The notes beneath the pieces were generated by a model. The model was not told the DNA's origin and searched no databases. It saw nothing but the letters and a program-made list of their open reading frames with translations. Position numbers and translations under genes: made by a program. A stretch of DNA of 64,000 bases from a virus, in IMG/VR virus record IMGVR_UViG_3300021602_000006, positions 1 to 64,000 of that record. One strand, given 5' to 3'. This document shows positions 6,269-48,121 of the stretch, piece after piece (within the stretch, counting starts at the first letter, position 1; each line of letters opens with the position of its first letter).

Positions 6269-7405
6269 ATGACTATTAAAGTAAGTATCGTTAAAGGTTT
6301 CCATCGCAATGAAGTTGTTTCCGGCATCTTCCCACTCATTAAACCCTACCAAGAAGGTGCTTTTGGTGGTTTTGTTACCATCTATAATCCCGCACCTAAG
6401 AAAGGTGCAGTATCGCATCAGCGTGTCAAAGTTATGCCTGGCGACTTTACACTCCTGGATGAAGCAGGTGAAGTGTTGTCTGAACACGTCACTATCGCAA
6501 CAGGCAGCGGAAAGATTGAAACAGGTACGAATTACGAGCAAGCATTTGTTTCTGCTGAAACAGATGATGATGCTATGGAGCGTATCAGCGAAACATTCGC
6601 AATGCTCGATAAGATCACAGATGCTTGCGCCCAGGGTGTAGTGCGTGGCCTTGTTGTGTCAGGTCCTCCGGGTATTGGCAAGTCTTACGGTGTCGAAGAG
6701 CAGCTGAAGAAGGCAAATATGTTTCGTAAAATTGCAGGGCAAGATCCGAAATATGAAGTTGTCAGCGGCGGCGTTTCGAGCATCGGCTTGTACCAGAAGC
6801 TTTATTACAATCGCAGCCCGGAACAAGTGCTCGTGTTTGATGATTGTGACGGAATTATGCAAGAGGAAGAGTGTTTGAACTTGCTAAAGGCATCACTGAA
6901 TAGTGGAGATAAACGGCGTATCTGCTGGAATAAAGAAAGTCGTGTACTCGGCGATGGCGAAATTCCTAATGCGTTTGACTTTGAGGGTAGTATTGTTTTT
7001 ATTACAAATATCGACTTTGAAAAGACAATTGCACGTGGCTCGCGTATCGGATCACACCTGGGTGCTATTATGTCACGATGTCACTACTTGGACTTGGAGA
7101 TTGGGTCGATGCGCGATAAATTGCTTCGCATAAAACAGGTATGCAAGGGTGGTATGCTTTCATCATATCACTTTTCTCAAACAGAAGAAGAAGATATTCT
7201 GAAATTTGTTGTAGATAACTCCGAATATATGCGAGAAGTGAGTCTTCGTGCAGTCAAGAAGATTGCCGATTTTGTAAAGATGGATTCTGCAGGATGGTTA
7301 GAACCGACAGAGGCGACATTACTTATTCGCGAAGCAAAATTCAAGCGACTGTTGCTGAAGAAACAAGAAGCCGCTAAACAAGGCTTGGTATTGGCAGATG
7401 TTTAA
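6269..7405 (+). CDS. AAA+ family ATPase
   Basis: 378 aa. Walker A GPPGIGKS at residues 132-139, Walker B VLVFDDCD at 187-194, sensor-1-like IVFITN at 242-247, and Arg-finger candidates at SR 258-259 and 269-270. About 115 N-terminal residues before the ATPase core are unlike known domains. Many tailed phages carry a single-domain ATPase of this size with MoxR/clamp-loader-like motifs; what it remodels is unknown. It has its own promoter and a terminator hairpin placed inside the convergent HNH gene. Confidence 0.85.
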   Translation: MTIKVSIVKGFHRNEVVSGIFPLIKPYQEGAFGGFVTIYNPAPKKGAVSHQRVKVMPGDFTLLDEAGEVLSEHVTIATGSGKIETGTNYEQAFVSAETDDDAMERISETFAMLDKITDACAQGVVRGLVVSGPPGIGKSYGVEEQLKKANMFRKIAGQDPKYEVVSGGVSSIGLYQKLYYNRSPEQVLVFDDCDGIMQEEECLNLLKASLNSGDKRRICWNKESRVLGDGEIPNAFDFEGSIVFITNIDFEKTIARGSRIGSHLGAIMSRCHYLDLEIGSMRDKLLRIKQVCKGGMLSSYHFSQTEEEDILKFVVDNSEYMREVSLRAVKKIADFVKMDSAGWLEPTEATLLIREAKFKRLLLKKQEAAKQGLVLADV

Positions 7406-8082
7406 TTACTGTCAAATGCATTAGGGCCTTTCGGGGCCTTTTTACATTTGTCTCCATGGTAACGAGTATGATTGCTAGTTGTGATATAGGCAGAACAATG
7501 AGTGCAGGTTAAACGTGGCTTCTGTTTTGCAGCTATAGACATATTTAATTTTGCTTGCTCGGTTTTCGGTCCTCTTTGTTTCTTCCGAGTCTCTTCAGAT
7601 ACTTTTACCCCCAATCTTGTTCCGGGATGAGTTTTGAAGTGTTCTATATTTGCTTTACTTAGTTTTTCGCGTGTTTCTGGTGTGTGAGTTATTCCTTTGT
7701 TCCACGCAGGCTTGCCATATGAATTTGAATTCGCTCCGGATTGCGCCTCGGCTAATTGCTTTCGAATTATCTCATACTCACGTGAAGATATTTGGTGCCT
7801 GTCTTGATTTTGATTATTGGCTTTGGCAAGCATATTCAATGCGAATATCATACTTTTTTTGTGTTTCGTATCCAACACCATCCGAACCAACAGCTTATGA
7901 CAGATGAAATGGACCCTACCCGGTATTCTTACAATGTTTATTTTAGCATTGGTACCGCCTAATGATTTTGGTAGTATATGATGATTCTCCGAATATGTTT
8001 CGTTGCTGTATTCTTTTGATACAAGTGAGAGATACCATTTTAGGTATTTGGTATTCTTCGATATTGATTCTATGTTGTTCAT
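7402..8082 (-). CDS. HNH homing endonuclease (copy 1)
   Basis: 226 aa. N-terminal HNH core ENHHILPKSLGG (His-His at 34-35) with VHFICHKLL, a NUMOD3-like segment SNSYGKPAWNKGITHTPETREKLSK, and a C-terminal zinc finger CTHC...HGDKC. The order (nuclease, NUMOD, finger) is that of free-standing phage homing enzymes. It is paralogous to 41002-41622. The ATG at 8082 is preferred to a TTG at 8097. It lies tail-to-tail with the ATPase gene, sharing a TTAA that supplies both stops. Confidence 0.88.
   Translation of the reverse strand: MNNIESISKNTKYLKWYLSLVSKEYSNETYSENHHILPKSLGGTNAKINIVRIPGRVHFICHKLLVRMVLDTKHKKSMIFALNMLAKANNQNQDRHQISSREYEIIRKQLAEAQSGANSNSYGKPAWNKGITHTPETREKLSKANIEHFKTHPGTRLGVKVSEETRKKQRGPKTEQAKLNMSIAAKQKPRLTCTHCSAYITTSNHTRYHGDKCKKAPKGPNAFDSN
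7422..7444 (+). terminator. terminator of the ATPase gene
   Basis: AGGGCC/GGCCT stem with one bulged G and a TTCG loop, followed by TTTTTA. It lies within the 3' end of the opposite HNH gene. Confidence 0.65.
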
Positions 8083-8087
8083 ATAGT

Positions 8088-8095
8088 TATTTATC
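8088..8095 (-). promoter_or_regulatory. GATAAATA motif at HNH start
   Basis: On the minus strand GATAAATA ends five bases before the ATG at 8082, inside a 7-bp inverted repeat (GTTATTT/AAATAAC). A transcript starting here would be nearly leaderless. Confidence 0.45.
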
Positions 8096-8125
8096 AAATA
8101 ACATAGGGTCTCGGGTAAAATATTG

Positions 8126-16698: not shown

Positions 16699-16890
16699 GT
16701 GAGCCTATTTGATGTTATAAGATATCCAATAAGCAATCCAGCTACTCTGGAAGAACTTCACGCGATCTCCAATCCATTAAAGGTAGAGATACTCAGGGCA
16801 ATACAAGCATCTGGTGTTCAAATCTTTAGCGAAGAAGGAACTGAGCTAATTAGATGGATGATACTTAGGCACGAAGATGACGATATTTGA
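16699..16890 (+). CDS. MTIFDT-family small protein (copy 2, GTG start)
   Basis: 63 aa from GTG at 16699, directly after the previous stop. SLFDVIRYPISNPATLEELHAISNPLKVEIL matches the N-terminus of the neighbours at 16877 and 17133 and of 2429. Shorter than the others, lacking the Trp after the IP-like motif. Confidence 0.65.
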   Translation: MSLFDVIRYPISNPATLEELHAISNPLKVEILRAIQASGVQIFSEEGTELIRWMILRHEDDDI

Positions 16891-17149
16891 CACAATACGT
16901 TATCCAGTAAGCGATAAGCCTACTGTAGAGGAACTCCAACGAATACCTAAACCCATAATACAGATGTGGCGTGATAATACTATGTGGAGAGAGCATGGAA
17001 CAGTTTCGCCCGCCGGCATGTCAGCATGGTACTGGAGACCTCGTACACAAGAGCATGTCAGGACAGAAGATGCTATAGCAGCGGATAAAGCCGAAGTAGC
17101 CTTTCTAAGAAGACTTATTGCTAAGTGGGACGATGATGACCATCTTTGA
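16877..17149 (+). CDS. MTIFDT-family small protein (copy 3)
   Basis: 90 aa. MTIFDTIRYPVSDKPTVEELQRIPKPIIQMW is the best-preserved family N-terminus. The C-terminal part ends FLRRLIAKWDDDDHL. Overlaps the previous gene by 14 bases. Confidence 0.75.
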   Translation: MTIFDTIRYPVSDKPTVEELQRIPKPIIQMWRDNTMWREHGTVSPAGMSAWYWRPRTQEHVRTEDAIAADKAEVAFLRRLIAKWDDDDHL

Positions 17150-17426
17150 TGTTATCAAGTGTCGCATAGACGAAGACTTTCTAATAGAAGACCTAAGGCG
17201 AATACCTCAGCAAATACTATGTGATTGGTGTAGAGAAGAATTAGGTACAGATTCAATGCTGTCTGCTCCAACATGGATACACGAGCATATGAAGTTGACT
17301 GCTCACTATTATAATGGTGGAATGTTTCAAGCACACTATAGAAGAAGATACTTAGACTCATTAAGAAAGAGAATAAGAGAGTATGAAGAACCGTTGAAAC
17401 AAATGGACGAAGAAGGAATAGATTGA
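17133..17426 (+). CDS. MTIFDT-family small protein (copy 4)
   Basis: 97 aa from the first of two ATGs. TIFDVIKCRIDEDFLIEDLRRIPQQILCDWCREEL, later RRRYLDSLRKRIREYEEPL. Third of three tandem copies; the fourth is at 2429. Function unknown. Confidence 0.72.
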   Translation: MMTIFDVIKCRIDEDFLIEDLRRIPQQILCDWCREELGTDSMLSAPTWIHEHMKLTAHYYNGGMFQAHYRRRYLDSLRKRIREYEEPLKQMDEEGID

Positions 17427-18759
17427 CACTCAAGTAAGCATAAAAGCTGGGATAAGTCAGGGGTAGCAATAGAGAAAGATAGGGGAAGGTAGGGGACGTT
17501 AGAGCACTGTAAGGGCAGGTAAAAGTGGGCATAGAAGTGTATGCAAGGGCAGGTAGATGTGATGAAGTGCAATAAAGTGCAAAGATGTGCAATTTTATCA
17601 ACGTATATGGTTTGATTGAATTCGAGCTCGCCTCTCTCGGTAGATTTCAAGGTCAGATTTGGTCTTTAAGGTAGGAATTCTAGGTAGGAATCCTAGGCGA
17701 CATTTCTAGATAGGGTTTTGGGCGCAGATTCGCACGCGGATTTCGCATTCGCGCTCGATAGATGTGTGCGTGTATGCATTTCTACCTATCTCATTGGCTA
17801 TCATTGCTTAAGGTAGATACTCTATCTATCGCTATGCACACAAGGTTGCCATAATGCGATGTTGCCAGGTAGATACCCTATACACATACCTCTACCTATA
17901 CACATACGTCTATTTGAACACCTTCTGATACTCTATCGATACTCTATCTTACCATACAGCTACCGTAAACACTGTATCACCTGCACCATCATGAAGGCAT
18001 AGCAACTGGCATCAGGTAGATACTCTATCGATACTCTACTACACTGTGATGCTCTATATGATAAATAACATTGTAGTAAATTAGATAGATACTCTATTCT
18101 TAAAGTCGCTTACGAGCATTGGCCAGCAGTTAGAAGTTCTATCACATATCTATTACATTTCGCAAACGGGTATAACAGCGAATAATAAATGATAAACCAG
18201 TAGGTATTGAGTCCTATAGTTAGTTGCGGATATCGAATAATGCAGAATAGTCGATATTGATTTACACATTATGCCTGCACGCGCCTACTGCTTCGGCATG
18301 CGATGGACATAGTTAATTTAAAGGGCATCAAGGCCCTATCGCCATTTGTGAAATCCTATCTATACTATGCCTACAGTTTATACTATGTCCGCAGAGAATT
18401 TCTATCTATCTGATACTCTATAGATACTCTTTGATAGGGTATCATTATGAAATCCTTTTCAATATAGAAACTCGAATGCCGAAACTCTATCGAAAGGTGA
18501 AATGGGTATCGAGGGTTTCGAATTTCGATAGAAAGGGTTTCGATAGGGTTAGTTGGTGCTTACTTACCGAAGAGTTTCAGTCTCGGTAGCAGGTTGACCC
18601 AGTAAGCTTAAAGTTACCGAGGCTGCGGCCCAGTGTTAATACCTCGCTAACTGTTTTTCCCAGTGCTCGTAGATGTTACCGAGGCCTGCAAATGTCTCGG
18701 TAGACCAGAGCTCATTGCCTGCAGATTGTATAGCGAGGTATGCCTGCATCTCTACCTTG
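17427..18759 (+). other. 1.3-kb non-coding tract, candidate replication origin
   Basis: No gene is supported. It holds a G-rich start (AGGGGTAGC..GATAGGGGAAGG), the dispersed CAAGGTCAGATTTGG sequence (17,649), about ten GATACTCTATC-type 11-mers (17,816-18,443), several GTTTCGA strings (18,500-18,560), and CTCGGTA/ACCGAGG/AGCGAGG motifs (18,570-18,735). Iteron-like repeats in long AT-rich non-coding DNA suggest an origin or partition-like site. Transcription enters again at 18,760. Confidence 0.6.
17816..18443 (+). repeat. iteron-like 11-mers GATACTCTATC
   Basis: Direct copies or near copies start at 17816, 17872 (CCC variant), 17927, 17938, 18019, 18030, 18048 (variant), 18088, 18412 and 18423; an inverted GATAGGGTATC ends at 18443. 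Two pairs (17927/17938 and 18019/18030, also 18412/18423) are spaced exactly 11 bp, one helical turn. Confidence 0.85.
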
Positions 18760-18788
18760 TTGACATTTGCCTAATACTACCTTACAAT
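18760..18788 (+). promoter_or_regulatory. promoter giving a leaderless mRNA
   Basis: TTGACA-17-TACAAT; the ATG begins six bases after the -10. Confidence 0.78.
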
Positions 18789-18794
18789 AGGAGC

Positions 18795-19205
18795 ATGAAG
18801 AACACACTTGTCACGGCCACGACGATAGCATATACAGTGCGTGACTGGGTTGAAAAGGAAGCATTCCGTAAGAACTATCACCCGGATAACCTATTAGGGT
18901 GGTGTGCAATTGCTTCTGCTGAACTACATAAGCGGCTGAAGAAGGAAGGCATTAAGGCCGATATATGTGTAAGTACGGAGCATTATATGGGGTCACACTG
19001 CTATATCGTAATAGAAGACCATGTTTTAGATGTAACTGCAACACAATTCGATACCTTTAGGAATACGAAAGTAGTTATTATGCACTCTAAGGAAGCAGAA
19101 GTGCATGAAATGTATAGGGCGGAGAAGGTGTTTGGTACAAGCAAGGAGCTTCGGGTGTACCAAAATAAACAGCGTTGGCCATCAAAACAAATTGCATACG
19201 CTTAG
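18795..19205 (+). CDS. transglutaminase-like fold protein
   Basis: 136 aa. Cys37 in LLGWCAIASAELHKRL, His68 in GSHCYIVI and Asp79 in DHVLDVTATQF give the Cys-His-Asp order of the transglutaminase-like superfamily. 'HVLDVTATQF' is typical for that family's Asp region. Substrate unknown; possibly a host-directed peptidase or deamidase. It starts six bases past the -10, so the AGGAG before the ATG would be mostly untranscribed. Confidence 0.7.
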   Translation: MKNTLVTATTIAYTVRDWVEKEAFRKNYHPDNLLGWCAIASAELHKRLKKEGIKADICVSTEHYMGSHCYIVIEDHVLDVTATQFDTFRNTKVVIMHSKEAEVHEMYRAEKVFGTSKELRVYQNKQRWPSKQIAYA

Positions 19206-19213
19206 ATCTATGC

Positions 19214-19339
19214 TATAATAAGGCATAGAGGATATAAGACCGCACTGACGTCTTACAAGCGGCTCAGCGGTAACTGGGCGAAGGAAGTATTACCGTACAT
19301 CTAGATTAGTGCTGTCCTATATACTCTACGAGGATTTAC
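19214..19339 (+). promoter_or_regulatory. promoter and pseudoknotted leader
   Basis: Extended -10 TGCTATAAT (19211-19219). The leader closes with TAGAG-G-ATATA (19226-19236) against TATAT-A-CTCTA (19318-19328). Inside is an H-type pseudoknot: GCTCAG 19262-19267 with CTGGGC 19274-19279, whose loop CGGTAA (19268-19273) pairs with TTACCG (19290-19295) across a purine-rich linker GAAGGAAGTA. A TAAGAC/GTCTTA stem is also possible. It resembles a regulatory leader or riboswitch. Confidence 0.65.
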
Positions 19340-25661: not shown

Positions 25662-25698
25662 AGACAAATCACGAGGTCAGATTTGGTCTTTTAATTTG
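25661..25698 (+). terminator. intrinsic terminator
   Basis: AAGAC-AAATC pairs with GATTT-G-GTCTT (one bulge) around ACGAGGTCA, followed by TTAATTT. The 3' half is the dispersed GGTCAGATTTGGTCTTT sequence also seen near 17,650. Confidence 0.65.
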
Positions 25699-25752
25699 GG
25701 AATTTGCGACAGATTCCTGCACAGATTTCCTGCCTATGTGCCTAAACAGGCA

Positions 25753-29652: not shown

Positions 29653-29671
29653 GCAAGCGGGGCAAGTCACG

Positions 29672-29695
29672 GGGGCCTAAGCCCCTATTATTTTG
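29672..29695 (+). terminator. intrinsic terminator
   Basis: GGGGC-CTAA-GCCCC then TATTATTTT. Confidence 0.85.
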
Positions 29696-30821
29696 ACTGC
29701 ACACTCTCGTAAATCAGGCTTATAGTCCAGGCTAACAACCGAGATTGACCTTTGTGTCTAATCTCCGTGCCTAAAACCTGCAGACAAATCCCCGAACCAG
29801 ATTCGCCTTTGTGCGTGCTTTATACACGCGAGTTATGTGCGCGAGTATATACATACACATACGCGCATAAGCATAGTAATCCCTGATGCCTAAGATGTTT
29901 GTTCTCGGTAAAGGATCTGAACCGGCCTCAAGACGGAGAACGAGACATCGTCTGACTAAGTCTAAAGTCTGTCGTCGTTTCCCTTAACCTTTGACATTTT
30001 AGCCTAACATCGCGTTCTTTGTCTTGAACCGGTTCAGAAGTCAGCATCGAGACATCGACTTTGCTAGTCGATCTCTAAAGGATCATAGTAACATCTCGCT
30101 TTATAGCTAAGATGAACCATAGATTCTATCTTACGTTTAGCGAGACTTTAGTTGATTCTTTAAAGATCAATGGCCTTAAATTGTGTATGTCTCGGCAACG
30201 TTGCACGCAATAACCTGTGTTGTACAGACACTACCGAGGCACGTTCCAAGCGTTAGTCAAGGGACTGGCTGCTCACGCATTTATAACGAAATTATAAGGT
30301 AAGACGCAGGTCTTGTCAACGATTTTTGTCATTAACATCTATGTAGTCTCGCTATCTTAGGTATAGGCCTTGTAGGTTAAACTCTAAACAGCGAGACTTA
30401 CTGTTAAAGACTCTAAGGTCCTGTGATTCGCCGGCGATCCTTAGATGATTCAGACTAATATCTCGCTCAGACTTCTTATGGTATCTTATGGTGGAGAACG
30501 CGAACTTACACAACTCTGATCAACTAACAGACTAACTTGATTCAAAGATTATAGACTAATAGTCATTATACTGGGCCGATAGGGAAGTAAGCACTAACAC
30601 ACTTAAGAGTTAGTTGGTGCCTACTTACCTGTCTCGCTCTCCAAAAAAGGTTCTTCCTGAGAAGTCGTAACTAGCAAGCGAGGTTGGTAGATAGGGCTAT
30701 CTCGCTCTCCAAAAAAGGTTCTTCCTGAGAAGTCTAACCTGCAAGCGAGGTTGCCCTAACGTCTCGCCCTCTAAGCACGCCCCTAACACTGCCACACACG
30801 GTTATAAAGATGTAACAGTGC
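29696..30821 (+). other. 1.1-kb non-coding tract with repeats
   Basis: No gene is supported. It contains eight or more CTCGCT/AGCGAG motifs, two 35-bp direct repeats (30632 and 30700, period 68), a 21-bp sequence shared with 18548-18568 (one mismatch), and alternating CGCGCA/ACACAT strings at 29,825-29,865. It may hold an origin, packaging or structural-protein site. A promoter begins at 30,822. Confidence 0.6.
30632..30734 (+). repeat. 35-bp direct repeat x2 (period 68)
   Basis: TCTCGCTCTCCAAAAAAGG and the following 16 bases are identical at 30632-30666 and 30700-30734. Each copy is followed by GCAAGCGAGGTT, so CTCGCT and AGCGAG bracket a 44-46 base potential hairpin in both. Confidence 0.9.
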
Positions 30822-30850
30822 TTGCGTTTGCTTTCATTTTGCGTTATAAT
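30822..30850 (+). promoter_or_regulatory. TTGCGT-class promoter
   Basis: TTGCGT-17-TATAAT preceded by TGTAACAGTGC; leader AACTGCATAGCAACAAAGG. Confidence 0.8.
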
Positions 30851-46723: not shown

Positions 46724-48121
46724 TTAAATTGTCCCTTTTATCGACTTATAGAACTCTTCTAGGCCAGCGAATGTTTTCAAAAAATTTGTGTTACGACGAC
46801 TGTCGTGTTCATCGACAAATTTAATAAAGTCTTGGCGGTATTTATTTACTTCTGCGTTCTCTGTATTACTATATATTAAATCTCTGATGCGTTTCATCTT
46901 TTCTGCTTCGAACTTCCCAAATCCGTAATTTATACCGTTTTCGTATTCTTGATTTTTATTTATAAACTCGAGTTGATCGTCGAGATGATGGAAAAATTCG
47001 GTCGGCATAATAAATATGCTCTGATGAGGGGGATATCGTAGATAAGGGATATCGAGCAATAAACGTGTTTGTGCGGTAAGCCATGCACTCTTAGACGGGA
47101 AGGCCTTCTTTATTTCGTATATGTCTTTAAGAAAATCTTTATACCCCACCACACTAAGAGCATTGTACGTACTCATTACTGTGATATTAAGTCCCGGGAT
47201 CTCCTCTAACAACCTATATATATTTCTTAACCAAAGCGCATAATCCATTCCAAAACGAATATATTCTGCCTGCTTGCCTGCGGCTTCTGCACTAGTAAAT
47301 ATTTTTAATTGCTTTACTTTTCCTTCGTTTATGATGATTTTAATTTTTTCTATAAATGCGTCAAGCAATGCAGCAGGTGGACAAAGATTAGAATTGATAC
47401 TAAGATCCAATACTGGGTTCGGATTTTCAATAATATAGTCTAGTACTCTGAATGTATTCTTGCTTAACAAAGGTTCCCCACCGGTTATTCTGAAATGCTC
47501 TAACGAGTTGTACATCCTGGGCCACCATTCCCAGAATGCATCCACGTAAGGATTTTCATCTCTGCTCGGGATAGGAATCATGTTTTGTGAACGCGGCCAA
47601 TCCAGGTTATTAAATCGGCCGCTAGTCGGGTACGCCCCGTATTTTTCTAATTCATCTAACCATTGACTACTAGCATGTGGACCACAATAACTACATTTGA
47701 AATTACATACATTACTGAAGCTTACTTCGACATAGCTAGGATCTACGTTATCATCCCATGATTTAGATGTTATGTCCTTAATATGAGGTAATGCCCAACT
47801 ATCCGAACTTTTTACAGTCCTGTCACTGATATTTCCCTGATCTTCTACTCTCCAGCAATAATCACATTCTGGAGGTCGAATACCGCTCAACATTAACTTT
47901 CGCTGTTGTTTTTTATACTCTGTATTATGTAAGGCAGTGGGGTTACGTTTAATTTCAGATAAGGGAATAAAATGTGTAGATGGGTGGTGGCAGCTATGTG
48001 TGTGGCCATTCTGAAGGTGCATTGTTACTTGCTTCCATTTTGCTACACAGAAACTAGGACTAACTTCGTTTATCTCTTCCCTTACATTTTCTAAATACTC
48101 TGTATATTTCTGGTTACTCAT
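46724..48121 (-). CDS. radical SAM enzyme
   Basis: 465 aa. C139-x3-C143-x2-C146 (NVCNFKCSYCGPH) binds the 4Fe-4S cluster; ITGGEPLL is the GGE motif. Additional Cys in the N-terminal part (C44, C86, C89 with PPECDYC) could hold a second cluster. Related 'twitch' radical SAM proteins are known from T4-like phages, substrate unknown. Located between two methyltransferase-like genes. Confidence 0.88.
   Translation of the reverse strand: MSNQKYTEYLENVREEINEVSPSFCVAKWKQVTMHLQNGHTHSCHHPSTHFIPLSEIKRNPTALHNTEYKKQQRKLMLSGIRPPECDYCWRVEDQGNISDRTVKSSDSWALPHIKDITSKSWDDNVDPSYVEVSFSNVCNFKCSYCGPHASSQWLDELEKYGAYPTSGRFNNLDWPRSQNMIPIPSRDENPYVDAFWEWWPRMYNSLEHFRITGGEPLLSKNTFRVLDYIIENPNPVLDLSINSNLCPPAALLDAFIEKIKIIINEGKVKQLKIFTSAEAAGKQAEYIRFGMDYALWLRNIYRLLEEIPGLNITVMSTYNALSVVGYKDFLKDIYEIKKAFPSKSAWLTAQTRLLLDIPYLRYPPHQSIFIMPTEFFHHLDDQLEFINKNQEYENGINYGFGKFEAEKMKRIRDLIYSNTENAEVNKYRQDFIKFVDEHDSRRNTNFLKTFAGLEEFYKSIKGTI

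Follow-up and report, generated by a model that had tools for sequence, protein, structure and literature searches.

The window analysed here, the first 64,000 bases of IMG/VR record G000 (70,489 bases), contains a gene-free tract between a group of tandem paralogues and a gene with its own sigma-70-like promoter. The following features were recorded in and beside it.

17427-18797: gene-free tract (1371 bp), from the end of an ORF at 17426 to the YunG-like gene
17564-17599, + strand: GTGCAA repeats, with counterparts in the relatives G013, G005 and G010 (inverted in G010)
17629-17746, + strand: outer conserved blocks CCTCTCTCGGTAGATTTC, GGTCAGATTTGG/AGGAATCCTAGG (box A), TGGGCGCAGATT and CGCGGATTTCGC
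17816-18098, + strand: upstream GATACTCTATC array, copies at 17816, 17872, 17927, 17938, 18019, 18030, 18048 and 18088
18059-18075, + strand: predicted late-promoter block TGATAAATAACATTGTA (17 nt), exact in the window, G001 and G013, with the GATAAATA box at 18060-18067
18072-18350, + strand: conserved core, the proposed late noncoding RNA, with a predicted 5' end
18094-18143, + strand: 50-nt block, identical in the window and G013
18159-18182, + strand: hairpin H1, TTCGC / GCGAA
18200-18217, + strand: hairpin H2, GTAGG-TATTGAGT-CCTAT, its 8-nt loop identical in four phages
18229-18258, + strand: hairpin H3, GATATCGA / TCGATATT, two pairs changed on both sides (three phages)
18322-18337, + strand: hairpin H4, AGGGC / GCCCT
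18412-18491, + strand: downstream GATACTCTATC array, copies at 18412, 18423 and 18481, with an inverted copy at 18433
18504-18543, + strand: GGGTTTCGA repeats, three copies in the window
18563-18705, + strand: TCTCGGTA / TACCGAG elements, part of which form hairpins
18760-18788, + strand: sigma-70-like promoter of the downstream gene, TTGACA-N17-TACAAT
18798-19205, + strand: downstream gene, weakly YunG-like, below the Pfam cut-off

A coding explanation of the tract was rejected: no ORF of at least 60 codons lies in 17651-18662, and the best small ORF, as we read the alignment, loses its frame in G013. The 36-codon ORF at 18303-18413 is retained in G001 with a 3-nt in-frame insertion (judged by eye) and loses its frame in G013 (by our reading of the alignment). 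No tRNA genes were found in the window and no terminator-like site in the tract. The downstream YunG-like gene has a homologue in five of the six relatives searched. Upstream, at 16699-17426, lie three tandem paralogues starting M(S/T)(L/I)FD(V/T)I, and more copies of these directly precede the tract in G001 and G013.

Repeat arrays and their turnover among relatives

An earlier note on this DNA had reported ten direct copies and one inverted copy of GATACTCTATC in the tract, and these were recovered. Four copies are exact (17816, 17927, 17938 and 18019); allowing up to two mismatches adds 17872, 18030, 18048, 18088, 18412 and 18423, giving ten direct copies in 17816-18433, together with the inverted copy at 18433-18443 and an eleventh direct copy at 18481. 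These 12 copies (11 on the + strand, one on the - strand) compare with 0.70 in dinucleotide shuffles. The commonest 8-mer of the tract occurs eight times, which none of 300 shuffles matched, and the array is the densest repeat cluster of the 70.5-kb record. The spacing of exactly 11 bp that the note had described was seen in three adjacent pairs (17927/17938, 18019/18030 and 18412/18423). The helical phasing it had ascribed to the repeats, however, does not extend to the array as a whole (Rayleigh R 0.07 at 10.5 bp, a value reached by 94% of random placements). Each unit is an imperfect dyad, GATA-CTC-TATC (GATA-N3-TATC). The additional repeat families claimed for the tract are also present, with three copies of the GGGTTTCGA/TTTCGATAG family and four of the TCTCGGTA family at up to one mismatch.

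The phages concerned form a family of very large, uncultured bacterial viruses. Eight of the 16 records of the set, G000 included, were read whole; G003, G004, G007, G008, G011, G012, G014 and G015 (18-61 kb) were scanned. G002 is a fragment, while G006 and G009 are near-complete. The gene caller used was a simple one, and the early genes of G000 are undercalled. In G001, the nearest relative, the DNA polymerase shares 77-100% identity (best segment) with 48 of 59 loci in the viral_contigs collection, its own locus counted, and the records so matched include sizes of 210-385 kb. Its identity to the polymerases of named jumbo phages (Sinorhizobium phage Phosso, Agrobacterium phage Atu_ph07, Vibrio phage 2.275.O and others) is about 38-43%. 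The clade encodes T4-type gp41, UvsX, gp44 and gp46/47, and its replisome is, to judge by sequence, of the T4 type.

The tract is found in the same place in G001, with 94.3% identity over 17131-19322; no other noncoding gap of that 101-kb record is as large, and ten GATACTCTATC copies lie in it. G013 also has it in the same place, at 1282 bp and strongly diverged outside the core. A diverged copy lies on the minus strand of G005 at 4120-3050, with a score reached by none of 200 shuffles. If the ends of that record join, the YunG homologue would be about 6 kb away. At 209590-210700 of G010 the outer blocks alone are present, in the same order except for the inverted GTGCAA repeats, and the core is absent. 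This tract is probably homologous: the grading reflects a whole-tract similarity that 7 of 200 shuffles reached, and the case rests on the shared order of the blocks. Box A by itself was rejected as proof of homology because it is a dispersed intergenic repeat that also occurs outside the tract. Neither tract nor core was found in G006 and G009, and the tract was not found in the fragment G002. Candidate tracts next to the YunG homologues of G009 and G010 were discarded, those stretches being coding.

Further relatives were sought with three core patterns and a promoter-plus-loop pattern, which in viral_contigs matched only G001 and G013; the promoter-plus-loop pattern had no match in the genome_contigs collection. 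A host or plasmid copy of the core was dismissed, a 23-mer of the core being without match in genome_contigs, and comparison of the core with plasmids and phages yielded only short, weak matches (E 0.3-0.9).

The repeats themselves turn over. Where the window and G001 have GATACTC-type repeats, G013 has GCATAG/CTATGCTA (CTATGC-type) repeats, and in G010 CTATAGT repeats perhaps replace GATACTCTATC. Both motifs were chosen after looking, and the shuffle tests apply to the repeat-bearing parts. For G013 the observed repetition was reached by 0, 9 and 2 of 300 shuffles for 6-, 7- and 8-mers respectively, weakening over the whole tract to 35 of 300 (7-mer) and 11 of 300 (8-mer); for CTATAGT in G010 the figures were 0 of 300 for 6- and 7-mers and 291 of 300 for 8-mers. 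Significant repeats were not found in the G005 tract. The GGGTTTCGA repeats persist, in clusters of five in G013 and six in G010; none of the eight records has another cluster of at least four. The earlier note had made its proposal of an origin depend on the presence of the repeats in close relatives: they are kept in G001, and the exact motif is gone from the G013 and G005 tracts.

It is very unlikely, in our view, that the repeats arose by recent duplication and have no function, the tract being retained for some other reason. Their lineage-specificity and the degeneracy of several copies would suit such an origin of the repeats. However, the copies flank the core on both sides, nearly all in one orientation and without a single tandem run, and other motifs are enriched at the same place in G013 and G010. 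Moreover, repeats differ from those of G001 at 7 of 132 positions, compared with 53 of 545 in the rest of the same stretch, the latter figure being inflated by one 24-nt gap.

Late-promoter motif and conserved core

Between the two arrays lie a late-promoter motif and a conserved core, both of which the earlier note overlooked. The word GATAAATA is enriched upstream of genes in every clade record read and is the most enriched upstream word in five of six records tested. Across eight records, a called start follows within 100 nt at 286 of its 394 sites; for comparison, the means for its anagrams are 0.6-7.2 per record. It stands one letter from the T4 late promoter TATAAATA and contains ATAAATA, the late motif of CBB/GAP32 (PMC5259590). 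We read it as the clade's T4-type late promoter box. One weak match to a gp55-type sigma factor (E 6.5e-4) was obtained among the eight records, in G013.

The + strand of the first 37 kb of the window carries three GATAAATA boxes, one of them inside the tract. Unlike the late promoters of T4 and CBB/GAP32, this box precedes no gene (none follows for 738 nt), and G005 has CATAAATA, with CATAAATAGCATTGTAG at the position equivalent to the box. The 17-nt block around the box stays exact amid diverged surroundings. An automatic test for orphan promoters missed this promoter because of chance ORFs such as 18303-18413. A suspected orphan late promoter at G002:4620 was rejected, as it reads as a gene start.

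The core spans about 290 bp (18060-18350) and is common to four of the five tracts (window, G001, G013 and G005). It is the best-conserved part of the tract against G013, with 66-86% identity in 50-bp steps over 18077-18376 as opposed to 24-68% in the steps around it, leaving aside the mostly gapped first step at 17427. In G005 it is recognisable at a score reached by none of 500 shuffles. On these alignments the late promoter and core are better conserved than the GATACTCTATC repeat, which is not the conserved part of the locus.

Four hairpins lie within the core. The stem of H2 occurs as GTAGG/CCTAT, ATAGG/CCTAT and GTGGG/CCCGC, which are compensatory changes, and U-G pairs in H2 (G005) and G-U in H3 are consistent with the + strand as RNA. 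H1 aligns ambiguously in G005, where neither H3 nor H4 is apparent. Covariation in H2 and H3 is statistically weak, with few sequences: pairs changed on both sides number two in H3 and two in H2, and 49 of 500 and 119 of 500 shuffles do as well. In the eight records and 59 loci, the H2 loop is found six times in exact form on a full stem, and the trio of late box, H1-like hairpin and H2 is confined to the four tracts.

Folding of the core is unremarkable. In the window it is no more stable than shuffles on either strand (z +1.20 and +0.10), and the + strand fares no better in G013 (z +0.94) or G005 (z -0.61). Stretch-by-stretch z-scores are similarly ordinary except at 18401-18550 (-3.10 on the + strand, -2.43 on the - strand). 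A known RNA gene was rejected, no Rfam match being obtained (gathering cut-off; E up to 5). With folding of this kind, and with shuffle controls that are unclear, we infer transcription, the ends of the RNA and any role for it mainly from the promoter, the conservation and the absence of genes.

Such folding, together with several independent repeat families and dyads in one tract, agrees with a site that acts as DNA only, where arrays and core would bind protein in packaging (terminase), as an operator array for the neighbours or in recombination, and any core RNA would be irrelevant. We regard this as quite improbable. The best-conserved outer signal is, on the contrary, a transcription start motif, and the invariant 50-nt block has no visible repeat or dyad character.

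Proposed function of the locus

The most likely reading, which we hold tentatively, is that the locus is a unit for a late noncoding RNA, with protein-binding arrays that differ by lineage on either side. The ordinary folding, the unclear shuffle controls, the absence of a terminator-like site and the small ORF retained in G001 count against it. The tract would be a cis-acting locus with the late promoter and noncoding RNA as its working centre. Late in infection, RNA polymerase with a phage gp55-type sigma factor would start at the GATAAATA box (18060), and transcription would proceed rightward across the core with its hairpins (about 18072 to 18350). GATACTCTATC would be the binding site of a putative dimeric phage protein. 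Because its copies flank the box closely, one ending a single base before it and another sitting about 16-26 nt into the proposed transcript, the bound protein may gate the late promoter or open the DNA there. If the specificity of this protein shifts quickly between phages, the repeats would therefore change and the core would stay.

Repeats and core separate between relatives, so both functions may be tested separately: the window, G001 and G013 have core and repeats, G005 has the core without significant repeats, and G010, the probable homologue, has repeats without the core. One locus joins repeats, a predicted late promoter and a conserved noncoding core, and the core, if transcribed, would be a phage RNA without an Rfam match. 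Among titles and abstract openings on jumbo-phage origins and iterons, intergenic noncoding RNA and GATAAATA, in a largely open-access literature, no description of the locus was found. To our knowledge, little has been established of how replication starts in jumbo phages with a T4-type replisome.

The earlier note had put forward the repeats as a candidate replication origin. What stands of this is that a conserved noncoding tract carries iteron-like arrays; no positive evidence that replication begins here was found. An initiator would here bind the GATACTC array, and the late transcript would serve as an R-loop primer or open the core, the RNA being primer or by-product. We consider an origin possible, if somewhat doubtful, and it is compatible with the late noncoding-RNA unit. 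Arrays flanking a conserved core in a gene-free tract argue for it, as does the T4-type replisome, and there are partial precedents. PMC3016281 describes 12-nt direct repeats clustered at T4 oriE, with an ill-defined role, and a late-mode promoter suggested for T4 oriC from unpublished data. Short direct repeats, a T4-type replisome and an adjoining promoter, here a predicted one, are common to both cases, and the oriE cluster moderates the earlier claim that iterons are uncommon among T4-like phages. Unlike the tract repeats, which are noncoding, the strong repeats near oriE lie inside gene 5 with a period of 24 nt. They were the only strong repeats found there (T4 record L192:2403-2570), and for that period and position they may be coding repeats.

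Two further origins invite comparison. That of the phage satellite PLE (PMC7145576) is a noncoding region with RepA_N iterons proposed to bind protein; the tract is likewise a repeat-bearing noncoding region and candidate protein binder, but contains in addition a putative late promoter and the conserved core. Mycobacterial prophages have noncoding-RNA origins (PMC7157519) and share with the tract a gene-free region and a noncoding RNA, in our case proposed from sequence; those are prophage replicons near parABS, whereas the tract belongs to a jumbo phage. GOLLD RNA (RF02032) is a large phage noncoding RNA present in G006 and G009, yet the core matches neither GOLLD nor any other Rfam family.

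Several observations weigh against an origin. Firstly, GC skew is unchanged at the tract and gene direction shows no strand switch there; skew was rejected as evidence for an origin, having no shift at the tract, and an unchanged skew does not exclude one. Secondly, the initiator gene that the earlier note had suggested seeking elsewhere did not appear as a Rep_3-type protein, none of seven records having a member of that family over the cut-off (G000 itself is incomplete). Thirdly, the tract is missing from the near-complete G006 and G009, and the G005 core lacks significant repeats. Finally, in T4 the late genes are normally transcribed in coupling with replication, so a late promoter would fit a secondary rather than a first origin. 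A more specific version, in which a structured initiator RNA is transcribed late in infection from a gp55-type promoter, between re-specifiable initiator-binding arrays, with scaffold and RNA kept while initiator and repeats coevolve in each lineage, is in our estimate unlikely. If true, this late-phase RNA-primed origin would provide a natural example of what has only been conjectured for T4 oriC, an origin with a late promoter.

Other observations in the window and its relatives

A second gene-free tract at 29653-30833 of the window combines TCTCGCT/AGCGAGAC repeats with a duplication of about 34 nt. It has GTTAGTTGGTGC in common with the first tract and is partly similar to a tract at G013:92039-93421. 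A dispersed intergenic element with AGATTTC, GGTCAGATTTGG and GGAATC-type words was noted at 17629-17696, 25668-25733 and 2745-2825 of the window, as well as at G006:323529-323597 and G010:223779-223832.

Positions 1-37000 of the window form an early block, in which sigma-70 promoters number 32 on the + strand and two on the - strand. The 32 are near-perfect (TTGAC-N17-19-TATAAT), and many are followed by a shared leader like ACACATCGCAACAAAGGAG, making up a dispersed early-promoter repeat.

GOLLD RNAs over the Rfam cut-off lie at G006:160815-161233 and G009:169065-169531 (minus), near the tRNA genes of these records (45-54 per record), and G009 also has a match to a permuted tmRNA. Within the window, a small protein at 9363-9770 matches the ribosomal L7/L12 C-terminal domain over the Pfam cut-off, a homing endonuclease with NUMOD3 is encoded at 7402-8097 (-) and a radical SAM protein at 46724-48121 (-).
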